From: Cystobacter fuscus
GTDB lineage: Bacteria > Myxococcota > Myxococcia > Myxococcales > Myxococcaceae
DNA length: 64,000 bases
Direction: 5' to 3'
NCBI RefSeq assembly: GCF_002305875.1
Contig: NZ_CP022098.1
Coordinates: 8,494,001-8,558,000 of the forward strand
This document shows positions 1 to 18,862 of this stretch, piece after piece; within the stretch, counting starts at the first letter, position 1; every line of letters begins with the position of its first letter. The position numbers and the translations under genes were made by a program. The notes under the pieces are model-generated. The model was not told the origin of the DNA and made no database searches. It was given only the letters and a program-made list of their open reading frames with translations.

Positions 1-205
1 CCTTCGCTCGCCGCGCATGCTCCTCGGCGGCCATCCTCCTGAGCTGATGGATGCGCTCATCCAGAGAGTGCCCCCTCATGCTGGGGGCCATGAAGGGGGT
101 GCCCGCCTCGGAGAGCGAAACAGGCGCTCCCCAGGTGGAACGCTCCTTCAACCGTGCGAGCAAGGCCGCCAGGCCCAGGGCGTCCTCGAGTGCATGCGCG
201 AGCAT
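1..205 (-). CDS. partial hypothetical protein running off the window edge
   Basis: An open frame on the minus strand runs without a stop from about position 300 to the window edge, so the gene's 3' end lies outside. The first ATG in frame is at 205; the frame stays open further upstream, so an earlier GTG/TTG start near 220-250 is possible. The visible peptide is helical and rich in Ala, Leu, Glu and Arg. I do not recognise the family. It lies 73 bp downstream of the serine hydrolase on the same strand and could share its transcript. Confidence 0.4.
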   Translation of the reverse strand, partial: MLAHALEDALGLAALLARLKERSTWGAPVSLSEAGTPFMAPSMRGHSLDERIHQLRRMAAEEHARRAK

Positions 206-278
206 GGCACGCAACCCGGCCTCATCGAGCTCTTCACAAGGAGCTTGCTTCGGCGCGCTTCGACGGCCCGGGCCCTGC

Positions 279-1946
279 CTACCGCGGCTTCCGCTCGAAG
301 CGGAGCTCGTTGAAAACGAAGCCCGTCAGCCGCCCGGCTTCATCATGGGTCAGCCGGACGAGGCCGAAGGTCGAGTTGAGCGCATCGGCGAAGGTCGTCT
401 CGAGCGGATGAGCCCCGAGGGCCCGGCCCTTCAGCACCGCCTTCCCGTCCTTCAGCTCGATGCTCCAGGTGGCATCCAGCTCCAGGCTGTAATACGCCCC
501 CGCCAGTTGCTTCCAGTCGCCGTCCGGGAGCGGGGCCGGCTGCGCCCGCTTGAAGACGCCCAGCACCCCCTCACGGCGCGACATCGTCAGCTGCCCGTCC
601 GAGAAGACGAGCTCGAGCGGGACGCCTTCCATCTCGAAGCGCTCGCCGCCCACGGCCCGCAGGGGCCAGCTTCTCCCGACGCCGGGCTGGAGCTGGAGCC
701 GGCCGTCCTGCTCGAGGATGTGCACCACGCGCTGCGCGCTCTCGTCGTAGTAGAGGCCCACATACCGGGCGAGCGCCCCGGCCGCGGCCTCCGGTGCGCG
801 AGGCGAGGCGGGCGCGGGTGCCTTCGCCTCCTGCTGCTGCTCGGCCGCGCGGAAGGTCTCGCCCAGGACGACGTCCGCCACGCTCTCGGCGAGATTCGGC
901 CGGGCATCACCCCGGTTGCAGAGGACGGCAATCGAGACGTGTTGCGCGGGGTAGCGCGTCAGCAGCGCGCGATAGCCCCCCCAGGACCCGGAGTGCTGGA
1001 TGCGTGGCACGCCGCGGTAGGTGTCCAGGAAGAGTCCCCGGCCATAGGAGGTGCTGGCTCCCGTGTCCAGGACTCCCCGCTCCTGAAGCCTGTCGATGAG
1101 GGCGCGCCCTCCGATGCGGGCGCTGTAGAAGTTCTCCTCCCATTTGACGAGCTCGGTGACGTTGGTCTGGACCTGCCCGTCCCCCAACTGCTCCCAGTTC
1201 GACATGTCGATTCGATAGGCCTCCTTCCCCGAAGGGGAGTAGGCGGTGGCGCGGCCGGGCAGGACGGCCGTGTGGTCGTCGCGGAAGTGGCTCCGCGTCA
1301 TGCCGAGGGGCTGGAAGAGCCGCTCCCGGGCGAACTCGGCCAGGCTCTTGCCGGTGACACGCTTCACGATGAGCGCCGCCAGGAAGTAGCCGGTGTTGCT
1401 GTATTCGAAACGCGTCCCGGGCTTGAACTTCAGGGCACGCTGGCGGGCGATGACGTCCAGGGCGTCGTCGTCATCCGTGAAGTCCTCGTAGTGGTAGCCC
1501 TTGAAGAAGAGCAACTGGTTGTAGTCGCGCAGGCCGCTCGTGTGGTGGAGCAGGTGGTCGACGGTGATGGGCGTTCCGTAGTCTGGGATTTCGGGCAGGT
1601 ACTTGCGGATGTCATCCGTCAGCGCGAGCTTCCCCTCGTTGGCCAGCAGCACGACGCTCGCGGCGGTGAACTGCTTGGAAACAGAGCCGACGTCGAACAG
1701 CGTGGTGGGGGTGATGGGCGTGGCCTGGTTCAAGTCGGCCATGCCGTAGCCCCGGGAGTAGAGGACCCGGCCGTCCTGGTAGATGCCCAGGGCACAGCCC
1801 GGGCTCGAGGGGCTGTTGTAGTCCTTGAACACCGCATCGATGCGGGCCGGGTTGATGCGGATGGGCGAGGGGGTGGCGGCAAGGGCCGGAAGCGCCGTCA
1901 TGAAGCCGACGAGCCCCGCGACCGTGAGGCGCGGCGATGCGAGCAT
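279..1946 (-). CDS. secreted serine hydrolase, class C beta-lactamase fold
   Basis: About 555 residues. The ATG at 1946 is chosen because GAGAGG precedes it and because it puts a signal peptide first (hydrophobic segment near residues 8-23 ending ALA-A). The beta-lactamase/transpeptidase fold is shown by S88-V-S-K91 (SxxK, nucleophile and base), Y182-S-N184 (YxN) and a later HSG triad in the GSWGGY context. The family covers D-Ala-D-Ala peptidases, esterases and class C lactamases; the C-terminal 200 or so residues look like the extra domain of peptidase-type members. The substrate cannot be read from the sequence. Probably acts outside the cytoplasm. Confidence 0.85.
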   Translation of the reverse strand: MLASPRLTVAGLVGFMTALPALAATPSPIRINPARIDAVFKDYNSPSSPGCALGIYQDGRVLYSRGYGMADLNQATPITPTTLFDVGSVSKQFTAASVVLLANEGKLALTDDIRKYLPEIPDYGTPITVDHLLHHTSGLRDYNQLLFFKGYHYEDFTDDDDALDVIARQRALKFKPGTRFEYSNTGYFLAALIVKRVTGKSLAEFARERLFQPLGMTRSHFRDDHTAVLPGRATAYSPSGKEAYRIDMSNWEQLGDGQVQTNVTELVKWEENFYSARIGGRALIDRLQERGVLDTGASTSYGRGLFLDTYRGVPRIQHSGSWGGYRALLTRYPAQHVSIAVLCNRGDARPNLAESVADVVLGETFRAAEQQQEAKAPAPASPRAPEAAAGALARYVGLYYDESAQRVVHILEQDGRLQLQPGVGRSWPLRAVGGERFEMEGVPLELVFSDGQLTMSRREGVLGVFKRAQPAPLPDGDWKQLAGAYYSLELDATWSIELKDGKAVLKGRALGAHPLETTFADALNSTFGLVRLTHDEAGRLTGFVFNELRFERKPR

Positions 1947-2131
1947 GGGAGGTCCTCTCAGAAGGGCCGAGGCAGCATATCGCCCAGCTCTGGCCCGGCG
2001 GGGCATGCGCTACACCTTGAGGCGGACGGCTCATGGCAGGATGGTGATGCGACAGTCTACCTCACCACGGCCGTGGGGCTCGGGAGCCTGGCCCGGTGGC
2101 TCAGCCAGGCCCCACGCTGAAGGAGGCGCGT

Positions 2132-2662
2132 CTAGGCGGCGGTGGTCACACGGGCCCGCAGCGCGCCGAGCTCGACCGGCGGTTTCTGCTCGATACGCCG
2201 GTACTTGCGGCAGTCCTGTGTTCTGTCGACGAGGCCAGCCTCGAACAGCGCCCGGCGGAGCACGGCGTGATCGCCGAACACATGCCAGCGGTTCAACAGC
2301 TCGTTGATCTCGCGTTCGGAGAGCACGCTGCCGCTCGGGATGCGTGACCAGAGCACCCACAGGCAGAGCCCCAGGTGGGGCCTCCTGGCTGGCCAGCGAA
2401 GCAAGCGCCCCTCTGCATCGAAATGCCGAGCGACCTTCTCGACGAGCTGATGGTCGGGGACAGGCTTCACTTCCTGGGCTGCGACCAGGCGTTGCCTGGC
2501 CTCTGAGTCGGCGCGGAAGTGCTGGTAGTTCCGGAAGCCGGCCGCGCGGCACAGCAGGTTGAGCAGCTCCACATGGCTCGGCTTGTGCTCGAGCTGGTCA
2601 CGAAGCGAGCGGGCGAAGGCCGAGAGATCGGCGACCTCGAAGGGGAGGGCGAGTCGGGACAT
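2132..2662 (-). CDS. DUF2087 domain-containing protein
   Basis: 176 residues. The N-terminal third (SRLALPFEVADLSAFARSL) carries the segment ending in PSHVELLNLLCRAAGFRNYQ that is usual for this group. The C-terminal part has the DUF2087 core: SEREINELLN, FGDHAVLRRALFEAGLVDR, then YRRIE close to the end. DUF2087 is a small winged-helix-like domain of unknown function, sometimes fused to regulators, so DNA binding is possible but not shown. GAGGA lies 6 bp before the ATG at 2662. Length is normal for the family. Confidence 0.85.
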   Translation of the reverse strand: MSRLALPFEVADLSAFARSLRDQLEHKPSHVELLNLLCRAAGFRNYQHFRADSEARQRLVAAQEVKPVPDHQLVEKVARHFDAEGRLLRWPARRPHLGLCLWVLWSRIPSGSVLSEREINELLNRWHVFGDHAVLRRALFEAGLVDRTQDCRKYRRIEQKPPVELGALRARVTTAA

Positions 2663-2895
2663 GGCTTATCCTCGTATGCGCCGTTCCAATGAAGGATGTC
2701 GCTGGTCGCCCTTACGACTCGGCACGGGGACAAGTCCGTGTCACATGAAGGTGCAGGTTTAGCTCCCCTCGCGGGGCGGCGACGCCTCGGTGAACTGCGG
2801 ACCGTTGGCCATTTCTAACACACATGGCGCGGCGATCAACCGCTCCACGCGCTCCCGTATGCTCCGGCTCCGGCCTCGCCCCTACTTGGGAGCCG

Positions 2896-4320
2896 TCAGC
2901 CGCTGAGCGCCATGGGCGGGAGGTACTCGCCCAGGCGCGTGCGCGTCCACCACGCGCCCGTGTCGCGCCGCTCCTTCCAGGTCGTGAAGCGGTAGCGGTA
3001 CAGGATCACACGGATCGCGCGCGGTGGGCGCTCCGCGAAGGGGTTGTGCCTCAACAGGCGGAGGGTCGCCGGGTCGTTCTCCAGGAGTTTCTCCACGAAC
3101 GGAGGGAACCACGAGGGCGTATACCTTGGCGACAGCGCGGCGAACCACATGAGCCAATCGAGCCGCAGGTGGTACGGCGCCCATTGTGACGGGCGCCGCT
3201 TCGGGTCGGTCGGCTTGCCTCGGAATTCGTATTCACGCCACTCCGTGTCCGGAGTGAGACGCTCTTCGTGGGTGCCCTCGAGAACGAGCTCGTAGCGCTC
3301 GCGCGTGATACTGCCAAAGGCACCGTACGTGTTCACGAGGTGGAGAGGATCGAAGCTGGTGTTCATGATCTGCTCCCGCGAGAAGAGGTTGCGCGCGGGA
3401 CGGTACGAGAGCACGACGACGAGCACGGTGACCGCGAGGGCGAGACCATCGTGCCACGCCACCACCATCGTGCCGGCCCTCTCGAGGGGTAGAACGCGTG
3501 CGAGTGCGGCATCGTCGAACGCCGAGGCGGCGAGCACGATGGTCACGACGTTGAGCCACGAGAAGTTGCCGCTCAGCACGAGCCATGCCTGGGTGATGAC
3601 GATCACCAGCCCCGCGAAGGAGGCGATCGGCTGCGGGAAGAAGAGCAGGAGCGGCGCGACGAGCTGGGCGAAGTGACTGCCGAGAACCTCAATCCGGTGC
3701 AGCGGCCCGGGCAGGCGGTGAAAGTACCAGGAGAGAGGGTTCGGCATCGGCTGCGTCTCATGGTGGTAGTAGAGGCAGGTGAGCTCACGCCAGCAGGGGT
3801 CACCCCGCATCTTGATGAGCCCGGCCCCGAACTCCACGCGGAACAGCAGCCACCGGAACAGCCAGAGGATCGGAGCGGGCACCGCGCTCCAAGCCGGGCC
3901 GAGGAACGCGGCGAGGAAGCCAGCCTCGAGGAGCAGCGACTCCCAGCCGAAGGAGTAGAACGTCTGTCCGACATTCACGATGGAGAGGTAGAGCGCCCAG
4001 AGCACGAGCCATGCCGCCATCGTGAGAGGCACCGGCCAGGCATCCGGCAGCCCCAGGACGATCGTGAGCGACAGGAGGATGCCCGCGAGCGCGACGACGA
4101 CCAGCAGGCGATCGGAGTAGCGGAAGTGAAACAGGCTGGGCGCGTCGCGGAAGCGAACCCTGGCAATGAACCGCGGCGCGGGAAGGAGACCCCGCTCACC
4201 GAGCAATGGGCGGAACTGCTCCAGTGCGACCAGGAAGGCAATCAGGTAGGCAAGCCCCAGGCCGCGCTGGAGGACAAGTCGCGCGATCCAGAAGTCCGAG
4301 GCGTGAAACCAATCTGGCAC
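2896..4320 (-). CDS. lipase maturation factor family membrane protein
   Basis: 474 residues, about eight to ten hydrophobic segments. The opening (ARLVLQRGLGLAYLIAFLVA, then EQFRPLLGERGLLP) and the middle WLLFRVEFGAGLIKMRGD are hallmarks of the family related to vertebrate LMF1, an ER factor needed for folding of secreted lipases; the role of the bacterial members is unproven. The likely start is the GTG at 4320 because in-frame stops lie just upstream; its ribosome binding site is poor. The first 157 or so codons and the upstream flank recur at 5917-6389 as a pseudogene. This copy is full length. Confidence 0.88.
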   Translation of the reverse strand: MPDWFHASDFWIARLVLQRGLGLAYLIAFLVALEQFRPLLGERGLLPAPRFIARVRFRDAPSLFHFRYSDRLLVVVALAGILLSLTIVLGLPDAWPVPLTMAAWLVLWALYLSIVNVGQTFYSFGWESLLLEAGFLAAFLGPAWSAVPAPILWLFRWLLFRVEFGAGLIKMRGDPCWRELTCLYYHHETQPMPNPLSWYFHRLPGPLHRIEVLGSHFAQLVAPLLLFFPQPIASFAGLVIVITQAWLVLSGNFSWLNVVTIVLAASAFDDAALARVLPLERAGTMVVAWHDGLALAVTVLVVVLSYRPARNLFSREQIMNTSFDPLHLVNTYGAFGSITRERYELVLEGTHEERLTPDTEWREYEFRGKPTDPKRRPSQWAPYHLRLDWLMWFAALSPRYTPSWFPPFVEKLLENDPATLRLLRHNPFAERPPRAIRVILYRYRFTTWKERRDTGAWWTRTRLGEYLPPMALSG

Positions 4321-4546
4321 ACCTCAACGCTAGGTCCGCCTCGGCGAGCTTTCAGCCGTGACGGCCTGGTAGCCTGGGGTGCTTGGTCGCCGAACGAGGG
4401 CTCGTGTACGGCGCCGTGGCGCTCATTGTCATACCCGCGGGACGGCACATCTCCCTGGAGGTCAACCCCGGGGGCGAATGGGGCAGCTCGGCCTGCCCAT
4501 CGCCGCGGCCCTGGCCTGAGCGCTTCTACCGCGGAGAAGGAGGAAC
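3849..4546. repeat. segmental duplication, copy 1 (LMF 5' part plus leader)
   Basis: This stretch matches 5917-6625 nearly base for base: the N-terminal half of the lipase maturation factor gene, the flank beyond it, and the leader of the secreted nuclease up to its purine-rich ribosome binding site. Copy 1 keeps the whole membrane protein gene but lost the nuclease body; copy 2 keeps the nuclease but lost the 3' half of the membrane protein gene. Confidence 0.85.
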
Positions 4547-4547
4547 C

Positions 4548-4590
4548 AAAGTCGAACCACCGCGCGCTGTACGCCTTCATCGGCATCTAG
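4548..4590 (+). pseudogene. 3' remnant of a second secreted nuclease gene
   Basis: The last dozen or so codons, reading KSNHRALYAFIGI then TAG, correspond to the end of the nuclease at 7608-7652 (KSNHRALYAFISF). They follow directly on a leader identical in layout to that of the intact gene (GCGGAGAAGGAG at 4531-4542). About 975 bp that should separate leader and tail are gone, so this is an internal deletion of nearly the whole coding region. Confidence 0.75.
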
Positions 4591-4720
4591 CGGGCGGAGT
4601 CAAGAAGCAATCATCATAGCGGGGTCGGGATACGGACGCTCCCGGCGAATGGGTACTGGCTGCGAGATGCCCAGGATGGACACCCGGACGTTCCCCACCT
4701 GCTCCGTCGTCCTGCCGTGA

Positions 4721-4942
4721 CAGTCGAGCTTCAGCATCCGACTGTACAGGCCGCGGTTCCACCATCAGCTGTTGAGGGCCTACCCGGAAGCCACGGAGTC
4801 GGAGCGCTTCGACGCCTACAGCGAAAGCGGTGCGATGAACGTGAAGAAAGTCGGCAATGGAGACTTCACCGATGCGTTCATCACGTCGTACAAGCACTCG
4901 TCCTCGCCCCAGCCCGGGGCGACCCAAACGAGGAGGAGATAA
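4721..4942 (+). pseudogene. orphan C-terminal coding fragment, family unknown
   Basis: A 73-codon open stretch without a credible start follows a TGA at 4718 and ends at the TAA at 4940. The peptide (with SERFDAYSESGAMNVKKVG and GDFTDAFITSYKHSS) has protein-like composition, unlike the shadow frames around it. It ends 5 bp before the lipoprotein gene at 4948, whose ribosome binding site overlaps its last codons. It looks like the tail of a gene whose front was lost in the rearrangements of this region. I do not recognise it. Confidence 0.4.
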
Positions 4943-4947
4943 AACAG

Positions 4948-5724
4948 ATGTTCGAGAGTTCCGGTGGACTGTATGGGTTGCGGCTGCTGGCCGTGGTCGG
5001 CGCGCTGGCGGTGGGGGGCTGTGGCGGCGCGGAGCTGGAGCCGGCGGAGTTGACGAGCGCGGAGCCCACGGGCGCGGCGCGGCAGGAACTGGAGGCCTGC
5101 AACTACTGCCCCAACAGCATGTCCGTCTACAACGGCCAGATCGGCACGACGATCCCCTGCTTCTGCACGGACAGCAAAGCCAGCGGCACCGGCTCGCTGT
5201 GGGGCACGGATGTCTATACGTCGGACTCGTCGCCGTGCCGCTCGGCGGTGCATGCGGGCGCCATCACGGCCAGCGGCGGGTTCATCGGGGTGACCATGCT
5301 GGCGGGGCAGACCACCTACACGGGCTCCACGCGCAACGACGTGACCTCCTCCTCCTACTACAAAGCCAGCGGCTATGCGGGCAGCTTCTCCGTGGCGTCG
5401 GCCGATGCGTGCGCGCTGCCGTGCCCCATCCAGCTCAAGGATTACCGGGGCCAGAACAGCACGGTGGTGTCCTGCAACTGCACCGCCGCGGTCATCGCCT
5501 CCCCGACCGGCTTCAGGGTGGTGTGGGGAACGGACATCTACACGGATGATTCGTCGGTGTGCCACGCGGCCGTCCACGCCGGGGTCATCACCGCGAGCGG
5601 CGGCATCGTCAACGCGGTGATCGCCCCAGCCCAGTTGACGTATACCGGGAGCACCCGCAACGACATCACGAGCAACAACTACACCAACAGCGAATACATC
5701 TACGGCAGCTACTACTTCCAGTAG
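4948..5724 (+). CDS. lipoprotein with two tandem LCCL domains
   Basis: 258 residues. AGGAGGAG at 4931-4938 lies 9 bp before the ATG. A lipoprotein signal ends with VGG-C25. Two homologous units of about 85 residues follow, each with paired cysteines, W-G-T-D-(I/V)-Y-T, S-x-(C)-(R/H)-(S/A)-A-V-H-A-G and T-Y-T-G-S-T-R-N-(D). This matches the LCCL fold, best known from eukaryotic extracellular proteins (cochlin, Limulus factor C) and present in some bacteria. A binding role at the cell surface is likely; the ligand is unknown. A strong hairpin follows at 5738-5772. Confidence 0.8.
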   Translation: MFESSGGLYGLRLLAVVGALAVGGCGGAELEPAELTSAEPTGAARQELEACNYCPNSMSVYNGQIGTTIPCFCTDSKASGTGSLWGTDVYTSDSSPCRSAVHAGAITASGGFIGVTMLAGQTTYTGSTRNDVTSSSYYKASGYAGSFSVASADACALPCPIQLKDYRGQNSTVVSCNCTAAVIASPTGFRVVWGTDIYTDDSSVCHAAVHAGVITASGGIVNAVIAPAQLTYTGSTRNDITSNNYTNSEYIYGSYYFQ

Positions 5725-5737
5725 CCGCCTGGCGCTG

Positions 5738-5772
5738 GCGCTTCCCGCGCGGCGGGCCGACACGGGAAGCGC
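5738..5772 (+). terminator. stem-loop after the LCCL lipoprotein gene
   Basis: A perfect 10-bp stem (GCGCTTCCCG at 5738-5747 pairing with CGGGAAGCGC at 5763-5772) with a 15-nt loop begins 13 bp after the stop codon. There is no T-tract, as is common for GC-rich myxobacterial terminators. Confidence 0.5.
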
Positions 5773-5855
5773 GGGCCCAGCGCTGCCAAGGGATGACCGT
5801 CTTGAGAATGAGGGCTTCACGCACGCCGCGCTGAGGGCTGGGCGCAGCGTTCCAG

Positions 5856-5907
5856 GGTGTCAGACGATTCGTGGGAGACGAGGTGTCGGAACGAATCCTT
5901 TGACACC
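5856..5907. repeat. 52-bp inverted-repeat remnant with GGTGTCA ends
   Basis: GGTGTCAGACGATTCGT (5856-5872) and ACGAATCCTTTGACACC (5891-5907) are inverted repeats, 15 of 17 positions matching, around an 18-nt centre. The outer ends resemble insertion-sequence termini. The left end with its flank (AGGGTGTCAGACGATT, 5854-5869) recurs at 8160-8376 once the MITE there is removed; the right end resembles 10304-10320. It ends 9 bp from the breakpoint of the truncated gene at 5917. Confidence 0.55.
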
Positions 5908-5916
5908 TTCCCCGGC

Positions 5917-6389
5917 GCCACCGGAACAGCCAGAGGATCGGAGCGGGCACCGCGCTCCAAGCCGGGCCGAGGAACGCGGCGAGGAAGCCAGCCTCGAGGA
6001 GCAGCGACTCCCAGCCGAAGGAGTAGAACGTCTGTCCGACATTCACGATGGAGAGGTAGAGCGCCCAGAGCACGAGCCATGCCGCCATCGTGAGAGGCAC
6101 CGGCCAGGCATCCGGCAGCCCCAGGACGATCGTGAGCGACAGGAGGATGCCCGCGAGCGCGACGACGACCAAGCAGGCGATCGGAGTAGCGGAAGTGAAA
6201 CAGGCTGGGCGCGTCGCGGAAGCGAACCCTGGCAATGAACCGCGGCGCGGGAAGGAGACCCCGCTCACCGAGCAATGGGCGGAACTGCTCCAGCGCGACC
6301 AGGAAGGCAATCAGGTAGGCAAGCCCCAGGCCGCACTGGAGGACAAGTCGCGCGATCCAGAAGTCCGAGGCGTGGAACCAATCTGGCAC
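5917..6389 (-). pseudogene. truncated, frameshifted copy of the lipase maturation factor gene
   Basis: Homologous to the first 157 or so codons of the gene at 2896-4320, ending abruptly at 5917 where unrelated DNA starts. It keeps the GTG start and the opening residues PDWFHASDFWIARLVLQ. One extra A at 6171-6172 (gacc-aa-gcagg here, gacc-a-gcagg in copy 1) shifts the frame after about 73 codons. Otherwise it differs from copy 1 by very few bases, so the duplication and its decay are recent. Confidence 0.85.
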
Positions 6390-6442
6390 ACCTCAACGCC
6401 AGGTCCGTCTCCGCGAGCTTTCAGCCGTGACGGCCTGGTAGC

Positions 6443-6601
6443 ATGGAACGCCTGGTCGCCGAACGGGGGGTCGTGTAAGACGCCGTGGGGCTCATTGTCC
6501 TACTCGCGGGACTGCACATCTTCCTGGAGGTCAACCCCGGAAGCGAATGGGGCATGCTCGAACACGAGTTCGGCCTGCCCCTTGCCGTGGCCCTGGGCTG
6601 A
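6443..6601 (+). pseudogene. remnant of a small one-helix membrane ORF in the nuclease leader
   Basis: A 52-codon frame from ATG 6443 to TGA 6599 reads ERLVAERGVV, a TAA stop at 6476, then DAVGLIVLLAGLHIFLEVN and a further 20 or so residues. One transmembrane helix is predicted by eye. In copy 1 of the duplication (4387-4520) the stop is a tyrosine codon, but that copy is damaged further on. The two copies thus carry different lesions in the same frame, which suggests it once was a small gene ahead of the nuclease. Confidence 0.35.
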
Positions 6602-6629
6602 GCGCTTCTACCGCGGAGAAGGAGAAACA

Positions 6630-7652
6630 GTGTTCATCTATCGAAGAAGACTGGTCGTGCTCACGGGCCTCGCGCTGATCGCGGTATTTGCCGCGTTCCG
6701 GCCCACAGACGCGGACGCCATGATCTCGGGACAGCCGACGGATCGGGTGTTGCGGGTGTACAGCAACAACATCGAGAACCTGGTCCTGAACAACGCCGAC
6801 GGGACCTGCACCCGGGTCTCGGGTACGGACCACCTGAGGTCGATGCTCGTCGACGACGCTGGGCAGACCGGTACCTCCGGAGTGGTCGCCCCCGATCTGC
6901 TCATCGTGCAGCAGGTACGCGGTATCGGGCAGGCACAGGCCTACGCCGACCAGCTCTCCGCCATGTTCGGGCTGCCGGTGGGGACGTACAAGGCGCTCGT
7001 TGCCTGGGACGATCCCGAGCCATGGGGAGGCAGCCACAAGTGCAGTGATCAGTCGTTGGGCGACCTGAAGAAGAAGCAGACCAACGGCATCATCTACAAC
7101 ACCGGGCGGTTGAGCCTAGCCGCCGACGACATCTCGGCCTACTGGAGTGCCGGGTGGCTCAAGCCGGGGATGGCGTACAACGGGGGGGCTGGATGCACCC
7201 TGTACAAGCCGCCGAACAGCGATTCCGGTACCACGTATCAATACAAGTGGAAGCGCACCAGCGCCATCGCCGCGCGATTCACCATCAAGGCGACCGGCAC
7301 CACGGTGTTCGCGGCGACCATGCACCTTCCGGAGGAGAACTCGGCGAACGCGTGCGCGGGTGACGGGAACACCGGCATCAACGGTACCGGCATCCACATC
7401 GGGGCGGACGCGACCCGCTTGATAAACGCATCGACGATCCGCATCGTGGGCATCGACGCGAACCGCAGGAACATCCCCTCGACCACGCTCAGCGCTCAGG
7501 GCATGACCGGCTACGGTACGGCGGCCACGCACGGGGCATCAAAGATCGACTACCTGTTCGTCCAGGGGGCCGTGCAACCGTCGCCGATCGACTACACGGT
7601 GAGCAGTACAAAGTCGAACCACCGCGCGCTGTACGCCTTCATCAGCTTCTAG
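6630..7652 (+). CDS. secreted endonuclease/exonuclease/phosphatase (EEP) family protein
   Basis: 340 residues from the GTG at 6630, preceded by GGAGAAGGAG. A signal peptide (RRRLVVLTGLALIAVFAAF) ends near ADA. EEP landmarks appear in order: YSNNIENL, VQQV, GIIYN, TMHLP, GIDAN, KIDYLFV and a C-terminal SNHRALYAF. EEP enzymes are metal-dependent phosphodiesterases such as DNase I. Two usual metal or catalytic acids are amides here: Gln where LQEV has Glu, and Asn where SDH has Asp, so activity may be altered or lost. The gene belongs to copy 2 of a segmental duplication; the other copy is deleted (4548-4590). Confidence 0.75.
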   Translation: MFIYRRRLVVLTGLALIAVFAAFRPTDADAMISGQPTDRVLRVYSNNIENLVLNNADGTCTRVSGTDHLRSMLVDDAGQTGTSGVVAPDLLIVQQVRGIGQAQAYADQLSAMFGLPVGTYKALVAWDDPEPWGGSHKCSDQSLGDLKKKQTNGIIYNTGRLSLAADDISAYWSAGWLKPGMAYNGGAGCTLYKPPNSDSGTTYQYKWKRTSAIAARFTIKATGTTVFAATMHLPEENSANACAGDGNTGINGTGIHIGADATRLINASTIRIVGIDANRRNIPSTTLSAQGMTGYGTAATHGASKIDYLFVQGAVQPSPIDYTVSSTKSNHRALYAFISF

Positions 7653-7673
7653 CGGGCTGGGCTTGATCCGTTT

Positions 7674-7775
7674 CCGTGGACATACCTCGTAAGTCGGCTA
7701 CACGGAAGGGAGTGTCCATAGGGCGAAGGAAGAGACGAAGCTTCAACGCGAAGTTCAAGGCCGAGCAAACCTGTA
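7674..7775 (+). mobile_element. IS3-type left-end remnant with start of orfA
   Basis: GTGGACA at 7675 resembles an IS3-family terminus (compare GTGGACAG at 63561). About 35 bp on, a GTG at 7712 opens [19 protein letters not shown], the typical start of the helix-turn-helix protein OrfA. Homology stops after some 20 codons and the rest of the element is missing. The open frame runs on into ynfA, but that is accidental. Confidence 0.55.
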
Positions 7776-7822
7776 GTAATGGGAGCTTGCTGGCCCCTTT
7801 TTCCCGTGAGAGGCACCGCACC

Positions 7823-8152
7823 GTGCTGCTGCTGCGCGCCTTCGGGCTCTTCGTCCTCACGGCACTGGCCGAGGTGCTCGGTTGCTACCTTCCCTACCTG
7901 TGGCTGCGCGAGGGCAGGTCACCACTGCTGCTCCTCCCCGCGGCCGCAAGCCTGGCTGTGTTCGCGTGGCTCCTGACGCTACATCCCACCGGAGCGGCCC
8001 GCACATACGCGGCTTACGGAGGAGTGTACATCGCCGTGGCTCTCGGCTGGCTGTGGTTCGTTGAGGGAGAACGGCCCACGGCCTGGGACATCATCGGCGC
8101 GCTCGTTGCCATGACGGGAATGGCCATCATCGTGCTTGGGCCCCGGAAATAG
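7823..8152 (+). CDS. ynfA: YnfA family (UPF0060) small membrane transporter
   Basis: 109 residues, the usual family length of about 108. Four hydrophobic helices are visible, with [36 protein letters not shown] and [20 protein letters not shown] matching the conserved UPF0060 pattern. YnfA is an SMR-type inner-membrane efflux protein. The GTG at 7823 is chosen because it gives the family length and has GAGAGG upstream; the frame is open further upstream only by reading through the IS3 remnant. Confidence 0.85.
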
Positions 8153-8167
8153 CCTTGGAGGGTGTCA

Positions 8168-8366
8168 TAACGGATTTCAGTTGAGTGTTCTCATCCCCTT
8201 CCGGGCGCATCAACCCGGTGAACGGGTACAGAAACCTATATCTTATATCGATTCCTGTTCGCCCACAGAGGGTAGAACCGTCGTCACCGCGCGAAGGCTC
8301 TACCGAGGGCTCCCCGAACGGGATTGTTTGTATGTCTTGACCGGAACATTCAACTGAAATCCGTTA
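8168..8366. mobile_element. 199-bp MITE with 23-bp inverted repeats
   Basis: Terminal inverted repeats at 8168-8190 and 8344-8366 match at 22 of 23 positions (outer part TAACGGATTTCAGTTGA). The element is flanked by TCA on both sides (8165-8167 and 8367-8369), a TNA-type 3-bp target duplication as in IS5-family insertions. It has no coding capacity. Removing it with one TCA restores AGGGTGTCAGACGATT, a sequence also present at 5854-5869, which supports the insertion model. Confidence 0.75.
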
Positions 8367-8373
8367 TCAGACG

Positions 8374-8548
8374 ATTATCAACTCGACGTTGTGCAGGCCA
8401 TGTTCGGCCACGAACGCGCGTGCGCGAGCGCCCACGGGGATGTCGAGCTGGTCGAAGAGCCAGCTCGCCTCCCCCGTCATCTCTTGCGCTTGGCGAACCA
8501 GACGTTGCTCCTCCGCGGCCTCGTGGCCGAGCAAATAAACATTTTTGC
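8374..8548 (-). pseudogene. internally deleted fragment of the methyltransferase at 15999
   Basis: The translated remnant reads VYLLGHEAAEEQRLVRQ through WLFDQLDIPVGARA and jumps to RAFVAEHGLHNVELI. Compared with the intact gene it lacks an in-frame stretch of about 34 codons that holds the SAM-binding motif, and everything after NVELI. The deletion endpoints coincide with GCGCGAGCG, which occurs at both positions in the intact gene (near 16577 and 16691), so slippage between direct repeats is likely. Confidence 0.75.
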
Positions 8549-8671
8549 TCCTCCACCGTCGCGGCAAAGGACGGGCTCTCTTCCTCCGGCCTCGCTCCTG
8601 CTTGGGGGACGCTTTCGTGGTATACTGTTTACTCTACGATTACGGGTGTGGTCGTCAGAACAGAAAGGTAC

Positions 8672-8809
8672 ATGATGAAGGAGCTACTCGACCTGCTGAA
8701 GCGGATTCTGCCGGATGCCTACATCTGGTCCACGATGGATGGGTTCACTCCGAACCGGGGTAACGAGAACGCGGTGGGTATCATCATCCAGCCGGGTCCC
8801 CAGGCCTAG
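8672..8809 (+). CDS. 5' part of a probably frameshifted gene (continues at 8818)
   Basis: 45 codons from ATG 8672, with a purine-rich AGAAAGG upstream. It begins MKELLDLLKRILPDAYIW and ends with GIIIQPGPQA at a TAG. The next frame is open over the end of this one and continues GLDQYM into the 297-residue frame at 8818, so one lost base near 8780-8805 would join the two into a protein of about 345 residues. Alternatively it is a short peptide translationally coupled to 8818. I favour the frameshift. Confidence 0.45.
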   Translation: MMKELLDLLKRILPDAYIWSTMDGFTPNRGNENAVGIIIQPGPQA

Positions 8810-8817
8810 ACCAGTAC

Positions 8818-9711
8818 ATGGCGCTGATGATGACGAACCCGGAGGAGATCGCGAACCTCTGGGGACACTCCGCCCTCTACTTGCGACGCAACGGTCGGGT
8901 GGTGCGCGCCGTGGGGTTCGACCCGCACCGGTTGGGCATGGCGCAAGACATGGTGATGCAACAGGTGAGCAGCGGGCGTCACCCGACGCAGGGCTACTAC
9001 TACGATGAGCGGGTGATATTCCGCAGCCCGGACGCACTCATCGTCGAGTTCCGCGTGGACACCTACCACGTGGACGAGTTGGAGCGGGTGGTGCCGCGTC
9101 CGGGCAGGGCCGTCAACCAGAACTTCCTGACGCAATACGTGACGCGCGACGGGCAGCGGCTAGCCTCCCAGCACGGTCAGTTCAACCCAAGCCAGATAGG
9201 CAATTGTATCAACTTCATCATCCAGGCCCTGACGCGCAGCAACCTGGTGGTCTCCGCGAGCCAGCAGCTGACATCGCGCTCCACGGGAAGGCTCACCGCG
9301 GCGCCGGGCTTCGACATGTCCCCCGCGCAGGGACAGTTGACGGGTGTGATGACCCAAGGCTTCCGCAACCAGACGCTCGTCCTGCACGACCTGGACTCGG
9401 GCATGCAACTCAACCCGCTCCAGACCCGGCGCTTGCTGAGCAGGGGGGCAAGCTTCTACCGGCGCGCGGTGGGCGGTATCACGACGCTGAGCGTGGCCCG
9501 GCTGGCGGGCGCCTACATCCTGCCGGAGAGCATGGCTCCCGTGTGGTTCTACTCGGACTACGCGGGGCTGGCGAAGATCATCATCGACATCTGCATCAAG
9601 GTATTCCCGAAGGGCAGTTCCTTCTGGATGCGCCAGCCCCACGTGATCGACGCCATCCTGGGCGCCCTCGTGAAGTTCTGCTTCATCCACGCCGCCATGT
9701 CGGTGACCTGA
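8818..9711 (+). CDS. uncharacterised protein, possible permuted papain-like hydrolase
   Basis: 297 residues as an open frame. No family recognised with certainty. The N-terminal part has WGHSALYLRRNGRVVRAVG, a histidine just before a beta-hairpin; about 100 residues on is GNCINFIIQAL, a cysteine starting a helix. A His-first, Cys-later order is that of circularly permuted NlpC/P60 (YiiX-like) amidases, so a cysteine hydrolase is a reasonable but unproven idea. The C-terminal third is hydrophobic in places. No ribosome binding site precedes this ATG, which supports its being the continuation of the frame at 8672. It is the only large gene inside the relic cassette. Confidence 0.5.
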   Translation: MALMMTNPEEIANLWGHSALYLRRNGRVVRAVGFDPHRLGMAQDMVMQQVSSGRHPTQGYYYDERVIFRSPDALIVEFRVDTYHVDELERVVPRPGRAVNQNFLTQYVTRDGQRLASQHGQFNPSQIGNCINFIIQALTRSNLVVSASQQLTSRSTGRLTAAPGFDMSPAQGQLTGVMTQGFRNQTLVLHDLDSGMQLNPLQTRRLLSRGASFYRRAVGGITTLSVARLAGAYILPESMAPVWFYSDYAGLAKIIIDICIKVFPKGSSFWMRQPHVIDAILGALVKFCFIHAAMSVT

Positions 9712-9854
9712 TGGGCTGACTGCCGGGTCTGTGGATCCTGCTGACGCTCCTGATGGCCTTCTTCACCTGAAGCCCCAGCTGGCGGCGCTCCAGACGCAGC
9801 TCACCGCGAGCTGGTGCTGGGGCGGGTTCTCCGAGCAGCACCACGCGAGTGCCA

Positions 9855-10006
9855 GCCCCCGTCTTGCCGCTGCCAAGCTTTTCACAGCGCGCGTAGGCCG
9901 CGCAGGAGTTCCGGGCAGCGACAGTCACCGCATCGGACTGAGAACTCACGCCGCAGCCCATCAGTCCCACTGCACCCAACATCCACAGTCAGTTGTTCAT
10001 GTTCAT
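9855..10006 (-). pseudogene. broken copy of the DUF6184 lipoprotein gene
   Basis: Matches the first 45 or so codons and the upstream flank of the gene at 17609-17965 (MNMNN, then LMGCGVSSQSDAVTV). Codon 6, TGG in the intact gene, is TGA here, and homology fades after GSGK. The divergent dehydrogenase fragment at 10132 lies on the other side of the same intergenic stretch, as in the parent locus. Confidence 0.75.
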
Positions 10007-10131
10007 GGACGCGCGGTTTATGCGCGGGTGCGTCATGACGGGAAGAGACAAGAGGACCCCCGCGAAACCCGAAGGGCGGACTTGTCGGTGCTGCTCGCAC
10101 TGGGGATGATTCCCCCATGCAAGGAGCACCC

Positions 10132-10311
10132 ATGGGAACGTTGACGGACAGGTGCGCGCTCGTGACGGGCGCGGCAAGTGGAATTGGCCAGGCGATCGCC
10201 GAGGCGCTGGGCGCGCAAGGGGTCCGGGTGCTGGTCTCGGACCTCGACGAGGCGGGCGCGCGCGGTGGCCGGGCGCAACCCCAACGCCATCGCGCAGCCG
10301 CTCGAGTTCTT
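10132..10311 (+). pseudogene. truncated copy of the 3-hydroxybutyrate dehydrogenase gene
   Basis: The first 55 or so codons of the gene at 18092, including the ribosome binding site AAGGAG and the cofactor motif GAASGIGQA. Two bases are missing near 10259 (gcgcgcggtgg against gcgcgcgcggtgg), shifting the frame, and homology ends about 20 bp before the TGACACCCTC end at 10312. Confidence 0.8.
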
Positions 10312-10433
10312 TGACACCCTCTCAGCGCGAGTGGCAGCGTGAGTGGCTGAGTGGCCGCCCACGCCAGACCAGTTCCCGGACACGTTCACGCGCCCCGGAT
10401 TGGCTCTCGCCACAGCCGCCGGAGCGAGCGACG

Positions 10434-11195
10434 TCACGGGAGATCGACGATGTGGACCTCTGTGCTCCGCGTGCCCGTCCCGTTCTTCTTGACGCCCACC
10501 AGGTCACGCTGCCTGCTGACAAGGAACTGCCAGGATTGATCCGTTTCCTCGATGGGCGTGCCGGTGTGCATGCTGAAGCTCTGGTAGTTGTTCGCTGCGG
10601 AGAGGACGTGGACCTCAGTGCTGTACGTCCCCGTGTTGCGCTTGTGGACGCCGACGAGATCCCGGTTCGCGGCGACCGCGAACTCCCACGAGTCGTCTGT
10701 CTGCTCCAGCGGAGTACCAGTGTGCAGGTTGAAGCTCTGGTAGTTGCTCGCCGCGGAGAGGATATGGACCTCGGTGCTGTGCGTCCCCGTGCCGCTCTTG
10801 AGGATGCCGACGAGATCCCGGTTCGCGGCGACCGCGAACGCCCAATTTCCCCCCGTCTCTCCCAGTGCGGTCCCGGTGTGCATGCTGAAGCTCTGGTAGT
10901 TGCTCGCCGCGGAGAGGATATGGACCTCGGTGCTGTGCGTCCCTGTGCCGCTCTTGAGGATGCCGACGAGATCCCGGTTCGCGGCGACCGCGAACGCCCA
11001 ATTTCCCCCCGTCTCTCCCAGTGCGGTCCCGGTGTGCATGCTGAAGCTCTGGTAGTTGCTCGCCGCGGAGAGGATATGGACCTCGGTGCTGTGCGTCCCT
11101 GTGCCGCTCTTGAGGATGGAGAAGAGGTCCCCGTTGTCGGCGATCGCGAACGCCCATCGGTCGTCCGTCTCCCCCAAGGGAGTGCCGGTATGCAG
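10434..11195 (-). repeat. five tandem coding repeats of about 156 bp
   Basis: The repeats encode the C-terminal units of the metalloprotease. Units 2 and 3 (roughly 10800-11110) are almost identical at DNA level over 156 bp, while units 1, 4 and 5 have diverged, so one unit was duplicated recently. Such an array can change copy number by recombination. Confidence 0.8.
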
Positions 11196-12047
11196 ACTGA
11201 AATGGAGAGCGATCCCATACAAGGCCCTGGCCCCATCGCGATCCTTCTGGGTCAGGACGAGGTCACCTGTATTGATTCCCATGCAACTGGGATAGTGCAT
11301 GACGGATGCCGAATCATAGGTCGTCAACGGACGCCAGTTACCGTCCTCGTAGCAACCCCCGATACCAACACGCGTGTGCTCATGACGAAACCCCAGCACA
11401 TGTCCGATCTCGTGCCGCAAGATACCCGTCAGCGTCCAGGGTCCCTGCGAACCAAAGGCGACTTCATCGATGAGGATGTTCCGAATGGGCCGAGGGTAAC
11501 TCGGGAAGAATGCACGCGCTGAGTACTGCCCCAGATTGACAGGGTTGACGTCGAAAACGACATTCGGATTGAGGCTCGTGCAGTTACCATCTTGCGCGCG
11601 ATCGTAGATGAGTCGCACATCGGCCGAAGCCTGCCAATCATTGGCGGCGCTGGCCATGGCTTGCACCACCGAATCATGCCTGGAGCCAAAGGCCGTGCTG
11701 ACGCAATAGCTCAGACTCCGCTTCTGGGTCGTGCTCCATCGATCGTCCACACTGTTGACGCGATTGACGATCAGCGCGCCATTCTGGAAATGCTGATCGT
11801 AGAACTCCTTCAATTTCGCGTGCGACTCCAAAGGGATGTCGCCGTCGACGATATAGACCCCCGTCCCGGGCTCTTGATAAGCGTTTGCCTCGAACTCCTC
11901 GAAGCTCATCGAAACCGACGTGCTCGAAATCGATTCGTCCTCGGACGAACCCGCTTCCGTGCCGGGCGAGCCGCCACAGGCCGCGAACGCGGAGATGGAT
12001 ACAACACGGACAGCAGCCAGGATCCATGAACAGCTATTGATTTTCAT
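10434..12047 (-). CDS. secreted zinc metalloprotease with five C-terminal 52-residue repeats
   Basis: About 537 residues from ATG 12047, which opens a lipoprotein signal (SAFAA-C24). The middle carries HEIGHVLGFRHEH, a metzincin-type HExxHxxGxxH zinc site, followed by the Met-turn SVMHYP; relatives include astacin/M12-like and matrix-type proteases. The C-terminal half holds five repeats starting HTGTxLxET, with W-x-F-x-V-A-A-N-R-D-L-V-G and TGTxSTEVHxLSAA(S/N)NYQSF, a propeller-like unit seen in other secreted bacterial proteins and probably used for binding. GC content is lower than in the neighbours, suggesting transfer. An in-frame ATG at 12092 would spoil the signal. Confidence 0.8.
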   Translation of the reverse strand: MKINSCSWILAAVRVVSISAFAACGGSPGTEAGSSEDESISSTSVSMSFEEFEANAYQEPGTGVYIVDGDIPLESHAKLKEFYDQHFQNGALIVNRVNSVDDRWSTTQKRSLSYCVSTAFGSRHDSVVQAMASAANDWQASADVRLIYDRAQDGNCTSLNPNVVFDVNPVNLGQYSARAFFPSYPRPIRNILIDEVAFGSQGPWTLTGILRHEIGHVLGFRHEHTRVGIGGCYEDGNWRPLTTYDSASVMHYPSCMGINTGDLVLTQKDRDGARALYGIALHFSLHTGTPLGETDDRWAFAIADNGDLFSILKSGTGTHSTEVHILSAASNYQSFSMHTGTALGETGGNWAFAVAANRDLVGILKSGTGTHSTEVHILSAASNYQSFSMHTGTALGETGGNWAFAVAANRDLVGILKSGTGTHSTEVHILSAASNYQSFNLHTGTPLEQTDDSWEFAVAANRDLVGVHKRNTGTYSTEVHVLSAANNYQSFSMHTGTPIEETDQSWQFLVSRQRDLVGVKKNGTGTRSTEVHIVDLP

Positions 12048-12358
12048 ATAATTGTCTCTGCATTTACAGGCAGTGAGCAAAGGCCATTCCATGAATGGCT
12101 CTCAATGGTTATAGCGTCCGATCGACGCGACACGGGCTGACGGCTCAACCCCTCGCCTGCCCGCCTGCCCCACGAGACGGCCAGAAAACCGGGATCTCCC
12201 CACCCAAACGGACCCAGGCGCATGGGGTTGCCTCAGGCGTACCAGTCTAAATGCTGGCGGCGAGGCGAACCCTAGCACACACATCAGGTAAAGACAAGGA
12301 GCAATCTCACGGTTGTTGAATCCTCACCTGTTGCGGGTCCAACCGTGCTACAACTAAG
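12048..12358. other. intergenic region without a recognised gene
   Basis: Upstream of the metalloprotease and of the kinase pseudogene, which diverge from here, so it should hold promoters for at least the protease. No clear -35/-10 pair or strong hairpin was found. Confidence 0.4.
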
Positions 12359-15998: not shown

Positions 15999-16820
15999 TC
16001 ACCCAGCTTGGTTGGGCTTTCGTCCCCACACCTGGAAAAACATGTGTGAGATCACGAGCACGTCTTCGCGCGCCAGATGTGCCACGAGCTCGGTCATCAG
16101 GTTGTCCAACTCCTTGGCCTCGATCCTTCCGGCTTCGAGCAGCTCCGCGCGGACGTTCTGGATGAAGTGGACGAAGATCTCGCGACGTGGATGGCCCTTC
16201 GGATAGACGTGAATGAGGGGCCGGACCTGGATATCCGTCAGTCCGGCCTCGCGAAGCAGGCGGTGAGAGCGCCGGCCCACGAACAAGTCGATGCCGTGAT
16301 CACGCGAGTGTGCGTGAAAGAGTTCGAAGAGACGATCCCACGCCGCGCAGGGCGGATCACAGCGATGCGGCAAGTAGTCGGCTTCGTGGCTGGCGACCAC
16401 GCCGCCCGGCCGCGCCAGCGCCACCATCTCACGGACGATTTCCTCGGGTCGCGGGACGTTGACGAGTACGAGACGCGCATGGACGAGATCGAATGAGCCG
16501 GGCGGTAGCCCCGTCGCGCGCGCGTCCCCTTGAATCAACTCGACGTTGTGCAGGCCATGTTCGGCCACGAACGCGCGTGCGCGAGCGAGCGTGTCTCCAC
16601 CGCGCTCGAGGCCCACCACCGTGCCGGAGGAGCCCACGCGCACGGAGAGTTGCTCGAGCACGCCGCTCGGACCACAGCCCAGGTCGATCGCGCGAGCGCC
16701 CACAGGGAGGTCGAGTTGGTCGAAGAGCCAGCTCGCCTCCCCCGCCATCTCTTGCGATTGGCGAACCAGACGTTGATCCTCAGCGGCCTCGTGGCCAAGC
16801 AAATAAACATCCGTGCCCAT
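15999..16820 (-). CDS. class I SAM-dependent methyltransferase
   Basis: 273 residues. AAGGAG lies 6 bp before ATG 16820. SAM-binding motif I is AIDLGCGPSG near residue 45, followed by VVGLERG (acidic end of strand 2), NVELIQGDA and FDLVHARLVLVNVPRPEEIV, with GGVVASHEAD further on. It belongs to the UbiE/Methyltransf_25-type group; the substrate cannot be told. Fragments with an internal deletion occur at 8374-8548. The gene at 16876 lies 55 bp upstream on the same strand and may be cotranscribed. Confidence 0.85.
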   Translation of the reverse strand: MGTDVYLLGHEAAEDQRLVRQSQEMAGEASWLFDQLDLPVGARAIDLGCGPSGVLEQLSVRVGSSGTVVGLERGGDTLARARAFVAEHGLHNVELIQGDARATGLPPGSFDLVHARLVLVNVPRPEEIVREMVALARPGGVVASHEADYLPHRCDPPCAAWDRLFELFHAHSRDHGIDLFVGRRSHRLLREAGLTDIQVRPLIHVYPKGHPRREIFVHFIQNVRAELLEAGRIEAKELDNLMTELVAHLAREDVLVISHMFFQVWGRKPNQAG

Positions 16821-17418: not shown

Positions 17419-17608
17419 CTCGCCTCGTCCTTGAGTCAAACCAGACCATCCAGGGACTACACTCCCGCCCAGAAACCGCCGCTCCAGAGCGGGTGGGCCG
17501 AGCGCCCCCTGTCATCCGCCGGTACGTGAACCCGGTGCTCCAGCCTCCACGCCGTTCACCCGAGGGGTCCGGGTGACGGCGCGCGAGTGCTCCGCTCGGG
17601 TCTACGGA

Positions 17609-17965
17609 TTACGGATTGCCGCTACAGACCTTGTCCCGGGAACACTTGTCCGCGACAAGCACGATCCATTCGACGACATTGTCACACGACATGACCTTGA
17701 TGGAATCCTGGCAGAAGTCGAAGTTGTCGCCATTGATGTGATCGTCACAGGCCGCCACCGACCAACGGTTGTTCCAGTCGGCCTTCTGCTTGATCATGCA
17801 GTCATCCTCGTTCGCATAGGCCTTGCCGCTGCCGATGTCGCCACAGCTCTCGTACCTCGCGCACATGTTCCGGGCGGTCACGGTCACCGCATCGGACTGG
17901 GAACTCACGCCGCAGCCCATCAGTCCCACCACTCCCAACATCCACAGCCAGTTGTTCATGTTCAT
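17609..17965 (-). CDS. DUF6184 family lipoprotein
   Basis: 118 residues. The signal peptide ends LMG-C18. The mature part is Cys-rich (ARNMCARYESCGDIG, DDCMIKQKADWNNRWSVAACD, FDFCQDSI, CDNVVEW, DKCSRDKVCSG), matching a small myxobacterial lipoprotein family often found near natural product clusters. Six to eight conserved cysteines suggest disulfides outside the cytoplasm. It is transcribed away from the dehydrogenase at 18092; the same divergent pair is duplicated in broken form at 9855-10311. Function unknown. Confidence 0.75.
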   Translation of the reverse strand: MNMNNWLWMLGVVGLMGCGVSSQSDAVTVTARNMCARYESCGDIGSGKAYANEDDCMIKQKADWNNRWSVAACDDHINGDNFDFCQDSIKVMSCDNVVEWIVLVADKCSRDKVCSGNP

Positions 17966-18091
17966 GGACGCGGGGTTTATGCGCGGGTGCGTCATACCGG
18001 CAAGAGTCAAGAGGACCCCCGCGAAACCCGAAGGGCGGGCTTGTCGGTGCACCTCTCACTGGGGATGATTCCCCCCATGCAAGGAGCACCC

Positions 18092-18862
18092 ATGGGAACG
18101 TTGACGGACAGGTGTGCGCTCGTGACGGGCGCGGCGAGTGGAATTGGCCAGGCGATCGCCGAGGCGCTGGGCGCGCAAGGGGTCCGGGTGCTGGTGTCGG
18201 ACCTCGACGAGGCGGGCGCGCGCGCGGTGGCCGGGCGCATCCCCAACGCCATCGCGCAGCGGGCCGACGTGTCCTCGCGCGAGGAGTGCCGGGCCCTGGT
18301 GGAGCGGGCGCAGAAGGAGTGGGGCCGGCTCGACATCCTGGTGAACAACGCGGGGCTCCAGCACGTGTCCCCCGTGGAGGAGTTCCCCGAGGACAAGTGG
18401 GAGCTGATGATCCGCATCATGCTCGTGGGGCCCTTCCTGCTCACCCGCTACGCCCTGCCCCTCATGTACGCGCGCAAGTGGGGCCGCATCCTCAACATCT
18501 CCTCGCTGCACGGCGTGGTCGCCTCGCCGTACAAGTCCGCCTACATCTCCGCCAAGCACGGGCTCATGGGGCTCACGAAGACGGTGGCCCTGGAGGCCGC
18601 GGACAAGGGCGTGACGGTCAACGCCCTGTGCCCCAGCTACGTGCGCACCCCGCTCGTGGAGAAGCAGATCGCCGACCAGGCCCGCGTCAACCACATGAGC
18701 GAGACGGACGTCATCGAGAAGATCATGCTCGCTCCCGCCGCCGTCAAACGGCTCCTGGAGCCCTCGGAGGTGGCCGCCTACGCCACCTTCCTGTGCTCGG
18801 ACGCGGCGAGCGGCATCACCGGCGCCGCCCAGATGATGGACTGCGGGTGGACGGCGCGATGA
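18092..18862 (+). CDS. bdhA: 3-hydroxybutyrate dehydrogenase (SDR family)
   Basis: 256 residues. ATG 18092 has AAGGAG 6 bp upstream. The Rossmann start is VTGAASGIGQAIAEALG (GxxxGxG), then NNAG, catalytic Ser in NISSLHG, Tyr-x-x-x-Lys in SAYISAKHG, and VNALCPSYVRTPLVEKQI, which is characteristic of D-3-hydroxybutyrate dehydrogenases, as is the tail GWTAR. It oxidises 3-hydroxybutyrate to acetoacetate with NAD. The stop overlaps the next start (ATGA), so the serine hydrolase after it may act on a related ester. Confidence 0.85.
   Translation: MGTLTDRCALVTGAASGIGQAIAEALGAQGVRVLVSDLDEAGARAVAGRIPNAIAQRADVSSREECRALVERAQKEWGRLDILVNNAGLQHVSPVEEFPEDKWELMIRIMLVGPFLLTRYALPLMYARKWGRILNISSLHGVVASPYKSAYISAKHGLMGLTKTVALEAADKGVTVNALCPSYVRTPLVEKQIADQARVNHMSETDVIEKIMLAPAAVKRLLEPSEVAAYATFLCSDAASGITGAAQMMDCGWTAR

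Follow-up and report, generated by a model that had tools for sequence, protein, structure and literature searches.

Direct copies with complementary lesions and uneven divergence at a lipase maturation factor locus of Cystobacter fuscus

When a tandem duplication is followed by complementary loss, as in duplication-degeneration or the reciprocal loss of duplicates, each direct copy keeps a different intact gene together with a pseudogene of the other. The locus described here has this layout. It lies in a 64,000-nucleotide stretch of the Cystobacter fuscus genome, referred to below as the window (G000:C1:8494001-8558000). It departs from duplication-degeneration in three respects: the copies have not diverged evenly along their length, both carry a dead third element, and an unrelated gene stands between them. 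A near-identical part beside an old, diverged one is likewise known as the outcome of gene conversion acting on a gene and its linked pseudogene copy; in contrast to known cases, it is divergence only that points to conversion here. The process is already known, being ordinary genome decay in an often-rearranging region, and the example is instructive: it would be a clean, datable case of a linked gene pair taken apart by duplication and complementary deletion. A literature search found no papers on this locus.

Two direct copies and their lesions

The features of the locus are as follows (LMF, lipase maturation factor; EEP, endonuclease/exonuclease/phosphatase).

2896-4320, minus strand: intact LMF1-family membrane-protein gene, 474 aa (Pfam LMF1 2.5e-63, LMF1_C 6.8e-51)
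3849-4595: copy 1, made of the LMF 5' third, an ATP-grasp stub and an EEP-gene tail
4373-4520 (approximate), plus strand: copy 1 stub, 3' end of an ATP-grasp gene, a pseudogene with a 13-bp deletion after 4484
4547-4613, plus strand: EEP-gene tail of copy 1 (4547-4590) with ancestral 3' flank; 4549-4613 aligns with the EEP gene end and flank in four relatives (G017, G031, G082 and G083)
4951-5724, plus strand: lipoprotein-like gene with an LCCL domain, located between the copies (Pfam LCCL in two stretches, 5.4e-39)
5854-5915, plus strand: R60, a dispersed imperfect palindrome of about 60 bp with 47 matches in its own genome
5917-7657: copy 2, made of a truncated LMF gene, an ATP-grasp stub and an intact EEP-fold gene
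5917-6389, minus strand: truncated LMF pseudogene of copy 2, first 157 of 474 codons, one A inserted at 6171
6442-6600 (approximate), plus strand: copy 2 stub, 3' end of an ATP-grasp gene, interrupted by an in-frame TAA
6630-7652, plus strand: intact EEP-fold secreted-protein gene, GTG start, 340 aa; the predicted fold matches EEP proteins (best E 3.2e-9)
7658-7765, plus strand: left-end remnant of an IS3-type element, multi-copy in sister genomes, where matches end near 7765

The two copies are in direct orientation with an offset of 2068 bp. Positions 3849-4546 match 5917-6628 over 712 columns (94% identity), beyond chance (BLAST E = 0 over 712 bp), and a second block, 4547-4595, matches 7609-7657 (96%). 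An alignment of the two copies shows 28 substitutions, two indels of 1 and 13 bp, and a deletion of 980 bp. These differences, the assembly into one closed contig of 12.35 Mb and the recurrence of the ancestral pieces in other genomes make an assembly artefact extremely improbable.

A reading made from the sequence alone had described two nearly identical segments, each with one working gene, and this is borne out: the LMF gene is intact in copy 1 and the 6630-7652 gene in copy 2, so that the surviving working set is one copy of each. Their dN/dS ratios, 0.24-0.29 for the LMF gene against the sister species and 0.29 for the EEP gene against the same-genus genome G003, are near 0.2-0.3, and both genes are therefore probably in use. 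The product of 2896-4320 carries both the LMF1 and the LMF1_C domain, and its role in lipase maturation is predicted from these family domains; our literature search found no functional study of a bacterial LMF1-family protein.

The lesions differ in part from those first proposed. Copy 1 begins with the LMF 5' third (3849-4320) and lacks the block equivalent to 6629-7608 (980 bp). The body of the EEP gene had been thought to be cut out between a leader and the last dozen codons; the last 14 codons are indeed kept, with their stop, whereas the deletion begins 1 bp before the EEP start codon and removes the GTG at 6630, so that no signal-peptide leader is left. Upstream of the deletion, copy 1 retains non-coding DNA and the ATP-grasp stub. 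Since the 3' flank that follows the tail, to 4613, is shared with the EEP flank of the relatives, copy 1 once held the whole EEP gene. This older flank survives only in copy 1; in copy 2, homology stops at 7657, at the left end of the IS3-type element. The LMF gene of copy 2 is truncated, as was claimed, except that two thirds of it are missing rather than the 3' half, and the extra base reported there is the A at 6171.

Identity of the EEP-fold gene and of the ATP-grasp stub

The 340-aa product of 6630-7652 had been called a nuclease. No Pfam, NCBIfam or PDB sequence match was found for it, and the Exo_endo_phos family, without a match to the protein itself, matched only one of 22 relatives, at E 0.15. 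Its AlphaFold2 model (pLDDT 75.9, pTM 0.80, low at residues 1-35 and 177-200) is matched by Foldseek to TDP2, nocturnin and a Bacteroides EEP protein, with E values down to 3.2e-9 and TM-scores of 0.36-0.45 by query, which supports an EEP fold. As in the EEP (DNase I-like) superfamily, whose predicted fold it shares, N47, H232, D276-x-N278, D307 and H331 are conserved in the window family. In contrast to the superfamily, all 22 relatives have Gln95 where the QE motif has its metal-binding Glu, and 19 of them read SNH instead of SDH. The nuclease label thus reflects the predicted fold of a protein in which the catalytic Glu has been exchanged, and the likely annotation is corrected to an actinomycete-like family with an EEP fold that lacks the usual catalytic glutamate.

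The EEP gene was found in 6 of 96 family genomes, belonging to two genera, and its nearest named relatives outside the family are those of the actinomycetes Asanoa, Nonomuraea and Micromonospora (70-79% identical). Sequence comparison suggests that the gene moved horizontally between the phyla, in one direction or the other. In G083, from another genus, two full-length EEP genes lie about 28 kb apart (G083:C1:7345357 and 7373200).

Between the LMF and EEP genes, both copies share a third element. A small membrane-protein gene was considered at this place and ruled out. Complete ATP-grasp genes whose 3' ends are homologous to the stubs occur in G010 (L044) and in the genome of the window itself (L049); these genes match the MvdD pre-ATP-grasp domain (Pfam, 9.6e-34) and MvdC-type maturases (TIGR04185, 4.8e-123, slightly under the family cut-off). 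Judged by this homology, the element is what remains, at the 3' end, of a dead ATP-grasp gene of the MvdC type (graspetide ligase). It corresponds to the 3' end of the MvdC-type ligases, and differs from them in keeping only about the last 50 codons and in being interrupted in both copies. A unit of exactly two halves, as first described, is thus abandoned in favor of one with at least three parts; the stub, R60 and the IS remnant were all absent from that description.

Relatives and the ancestral order

If a divergent pair was duplicated, a sister species might be expected to carry a single pair, with the membrane-protein gene on one strand and the nuclease gene on the other, as the sequence-only reading had predicted. 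Such an order is found in G003, where DNA equivalent to window positions 2849-2947 (LMF last codons, stop and downstream DNA) is contiguous with that equivalent to 6517-7657 (stub and EEP gene). The order there is LMF on the minus strand, stub, and EEP gene on the plus strand. Nearly all of the LMF gene is deleted: its remnant consists of the last 15 residues, the ancestral stop and the downstream DNA of the window gene. By this alignment, the G003 arrangement is the predicted ancestral order minus the LMF body, and it supports the proposed ancestor.

Close LMF orthologues are present in the same-genus genomes G001 and G003 (95-96% aa identity), and others in several genomes of two other genera (81-85%), with a fragment in G060. 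G001 and G003 keep the gene at another locus, where the ancestral stop is missing and the gene extends into DNA that precedes an R60 repeat. At the place corresponding to the window locus, G001 has neither the LMF nor the EEP gene, which counts against the history favored below. Since this second LMF locus is empty in the window's genome (24 bp instead of the island, at G000:C1:11005587-11005610; L117 5587-5611), the site at which the LMF gene has been retained varies between species, being the window locus in one and the other locus in its two sisters. We found neither a genome with two complete units nor a relative in which both unpaired copies, arranged as here, have full-length homology to different genes.

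Origin of the copies and of their junctions

The history that we favor, with somewhat better than even confidence in the account as a whole, is the direct duplication of one ancestral unit, complementary loss, and later homogenization of the LMF parts. The ancestral unit would have consisted of the LMF gene on the minus strand, diverging from the dead ATP-grasp stub and the EEP-fold gene on the plus strand. It would have been duplicated in direct orientation at about the time when the species of the genus separated, creating a new junction that joined R60 at its right edge (5915) to an internal position of the LMF gene (3849). Copy 1 would then have lost the EEP-gene body through the 980-bp deletion. 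The duplicated unit would not have extended to the LMF 3' part, which copy 2 would thus have lacked from the start; copy 2 would have gained its frameshift afterwards, and its right side may have been removed by IS3 insertion and deletion, a second LCCL gene going too. What a tandem duplication may be expected to leave is observed: direct copies sharing breakpoints and order, each with one constrained gene and a lesion in the other, and a relative whose single unit shows that order as well. The LCCL gene, which lies between the breakpoints, is present once, and copy 2 is truncated on its right by the IS3 remnant.

Even divergence along the copies, expected from a single event, was not observed. 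In the LMF part, 6 of 524 sites differ (1.1%), distributed as 0 of 376 and then 6 of 148 (p = 5e-4), against 22 of 174 (12.6%) in the stub (Fisher p = 1.6e-9 for the two parts). For comparison, dS between the window and G003 amounts to 0.106 (EEP gene) and 0.097 (LMF gene; 0.07-0.10 for LMF against the sisters, 0.07-0.11 overall), and the three species share 87-92% identity in flanking DNA. At 99 shared stub sites, the two copies differ from each other at 9, copy 1 differs from G003 at 7 and copy 2 from G003 at 10. The stub copies would thus be about as old as the species split, a rough date given a stub of only 174 bp. The LMF parts, by comparison, look younger than this neighbor by a factor of ten; the similarity of copies, then, need not date their duplication. 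Constraint cannot explain the similarity of the LMF parts because the LMF gene of copy 2 is a pseudogene. As the stub divergence is close to the between-species level, either the duplication is old and the LMF part was homogenized later, or the copies have a two-step history. Gene conversion between the direct copies is most likely, and would be the simplest account of these values; a two-step origin is its main rival. Of the initial proposal of a tandem duplication split into two complementary halves, direct duplication and complementary loss are retained, and the contrast between LMF part and stub argues against a single event.

A stub divergence equal to that between species, next to a nearly identical LMF part, would also be expected if the stub and EEP gene of copy 2 were an allele of a sibling lineage, imported by recombination through the shared LMF sequence. 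However, recombination through LMF alone would not leave two linked copies flanking the LCCL gene, and the dS of the EEP gene to G003 is like that of LMF, so that its distance gives no sign of an origin outside the genus. We consider this scenario improbable.

The question also arises as to how the LCCL gene came to lie between the copies, where it had rightly been placed by the initial reading. A clean tandem unit, as then supposed, would include it. LCCL homologues, with identities of up to 55%, occur in 38 of the 96 family genomes; none was found at the corresponding position in the sister species, and no second remnant was seen beyond 7657. Either a second LCCL gene was lost at the IS remnant, or the gene arrived separately. 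In the second case, copying of the LMF-5'/stub/EEP segment would have taken place within a rearranging island, and the space between the copies would have received an LCCL-R60 module by insertion or capture, with no tandem duplication of LCCL. The single LCCL gene, its absence from the sister-species island and the patchiness of its homologues are in keeping with this, as are the coincidence of R60 edges with junctions here and at the sister-species LMF locus and the other nested partial copies of the region: 9863-10298 duplicates 17822-18260 in truncated form (91%), and 8377-8542 repeats 16534-16810. Nevertheless, the direct orientation, the exact abutment of the R60 right edge (5915) on the left edge of copy 2 (5917) and the conserved order fit one tandem event more simply, and the IS remnant would account for the missing LCCL gene. 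We therefore regard the two-step history as the less likely of the two, though as one to be taken seriously, and retain direct duplication. The IS3-type element is a truncated remnant, since near 7765 its matches in sister genomes break off; in L080, a more complete copy continues as an IS3 orfA-like frame. A YnfA/UPF0060 membrane-protein gene (7676-8152) is joined in frame to the remnant.

R60 is also numerous in the sister genomes. Like REP/MITE-like short palindromic repeats, it is about 60 bp long, palindromic, intergenic and present in dozens of copies; unlike them, it is linked to no transposase here, and its edges coincide with several rearrangement junctions. At the sites considered (the window copy, L040 8833-8890, L149 18417-18476, and L151 7756-7816 and 9531-9580), edges fall within about 12 bp of several homology breaks, a coincidence noticed after the fact. 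One edge lies at the boundary of the sister-species LMF island (L040 8890/8892), an island absent from the window's own genome. That R60 edges might be preferred junctions for the duplication, deletion and relocation of gene-sized modules is, on these alignments, a doubtful proposition. An integron attC-like or terminator element was set aside, orientation relative to the upstream gene being mixed over 30 sites (with a crude gene caller), as was a strongly structured folded strand, folding being not above that of shuffles (z -0.96).

The locus is part of a variable island in which local duplication and deletion have recurred, and is itself one outcome of them. The downstream region that was copied in the window has also been partly copied in G003, where the copy is a different one (equivalent to 17601-17809), and block order differs among G000, G001 and G003. 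The local truncated copies of downstream genes include the 5' part of an SDR-like gene. Elsewhere in the surroundings, an inverted repeat of 29 nt (90%) encloses 153 bp at 8162-8372 and is MITE-like. In positions 1-12000, the only Rfam family found was the COG3860 RNA motif (RF02940, E 2.7e-15), at 2751-2804 on the minus strand; a DUF2087 gene on the same strand (2132-2662) follows closely downstream of it. Four direct repeats of 156 bp lie at 10446-11213 within a metalloprotease-like ORF (10434-12092, minus strand), in which an HExxH-type motif was read by eye.
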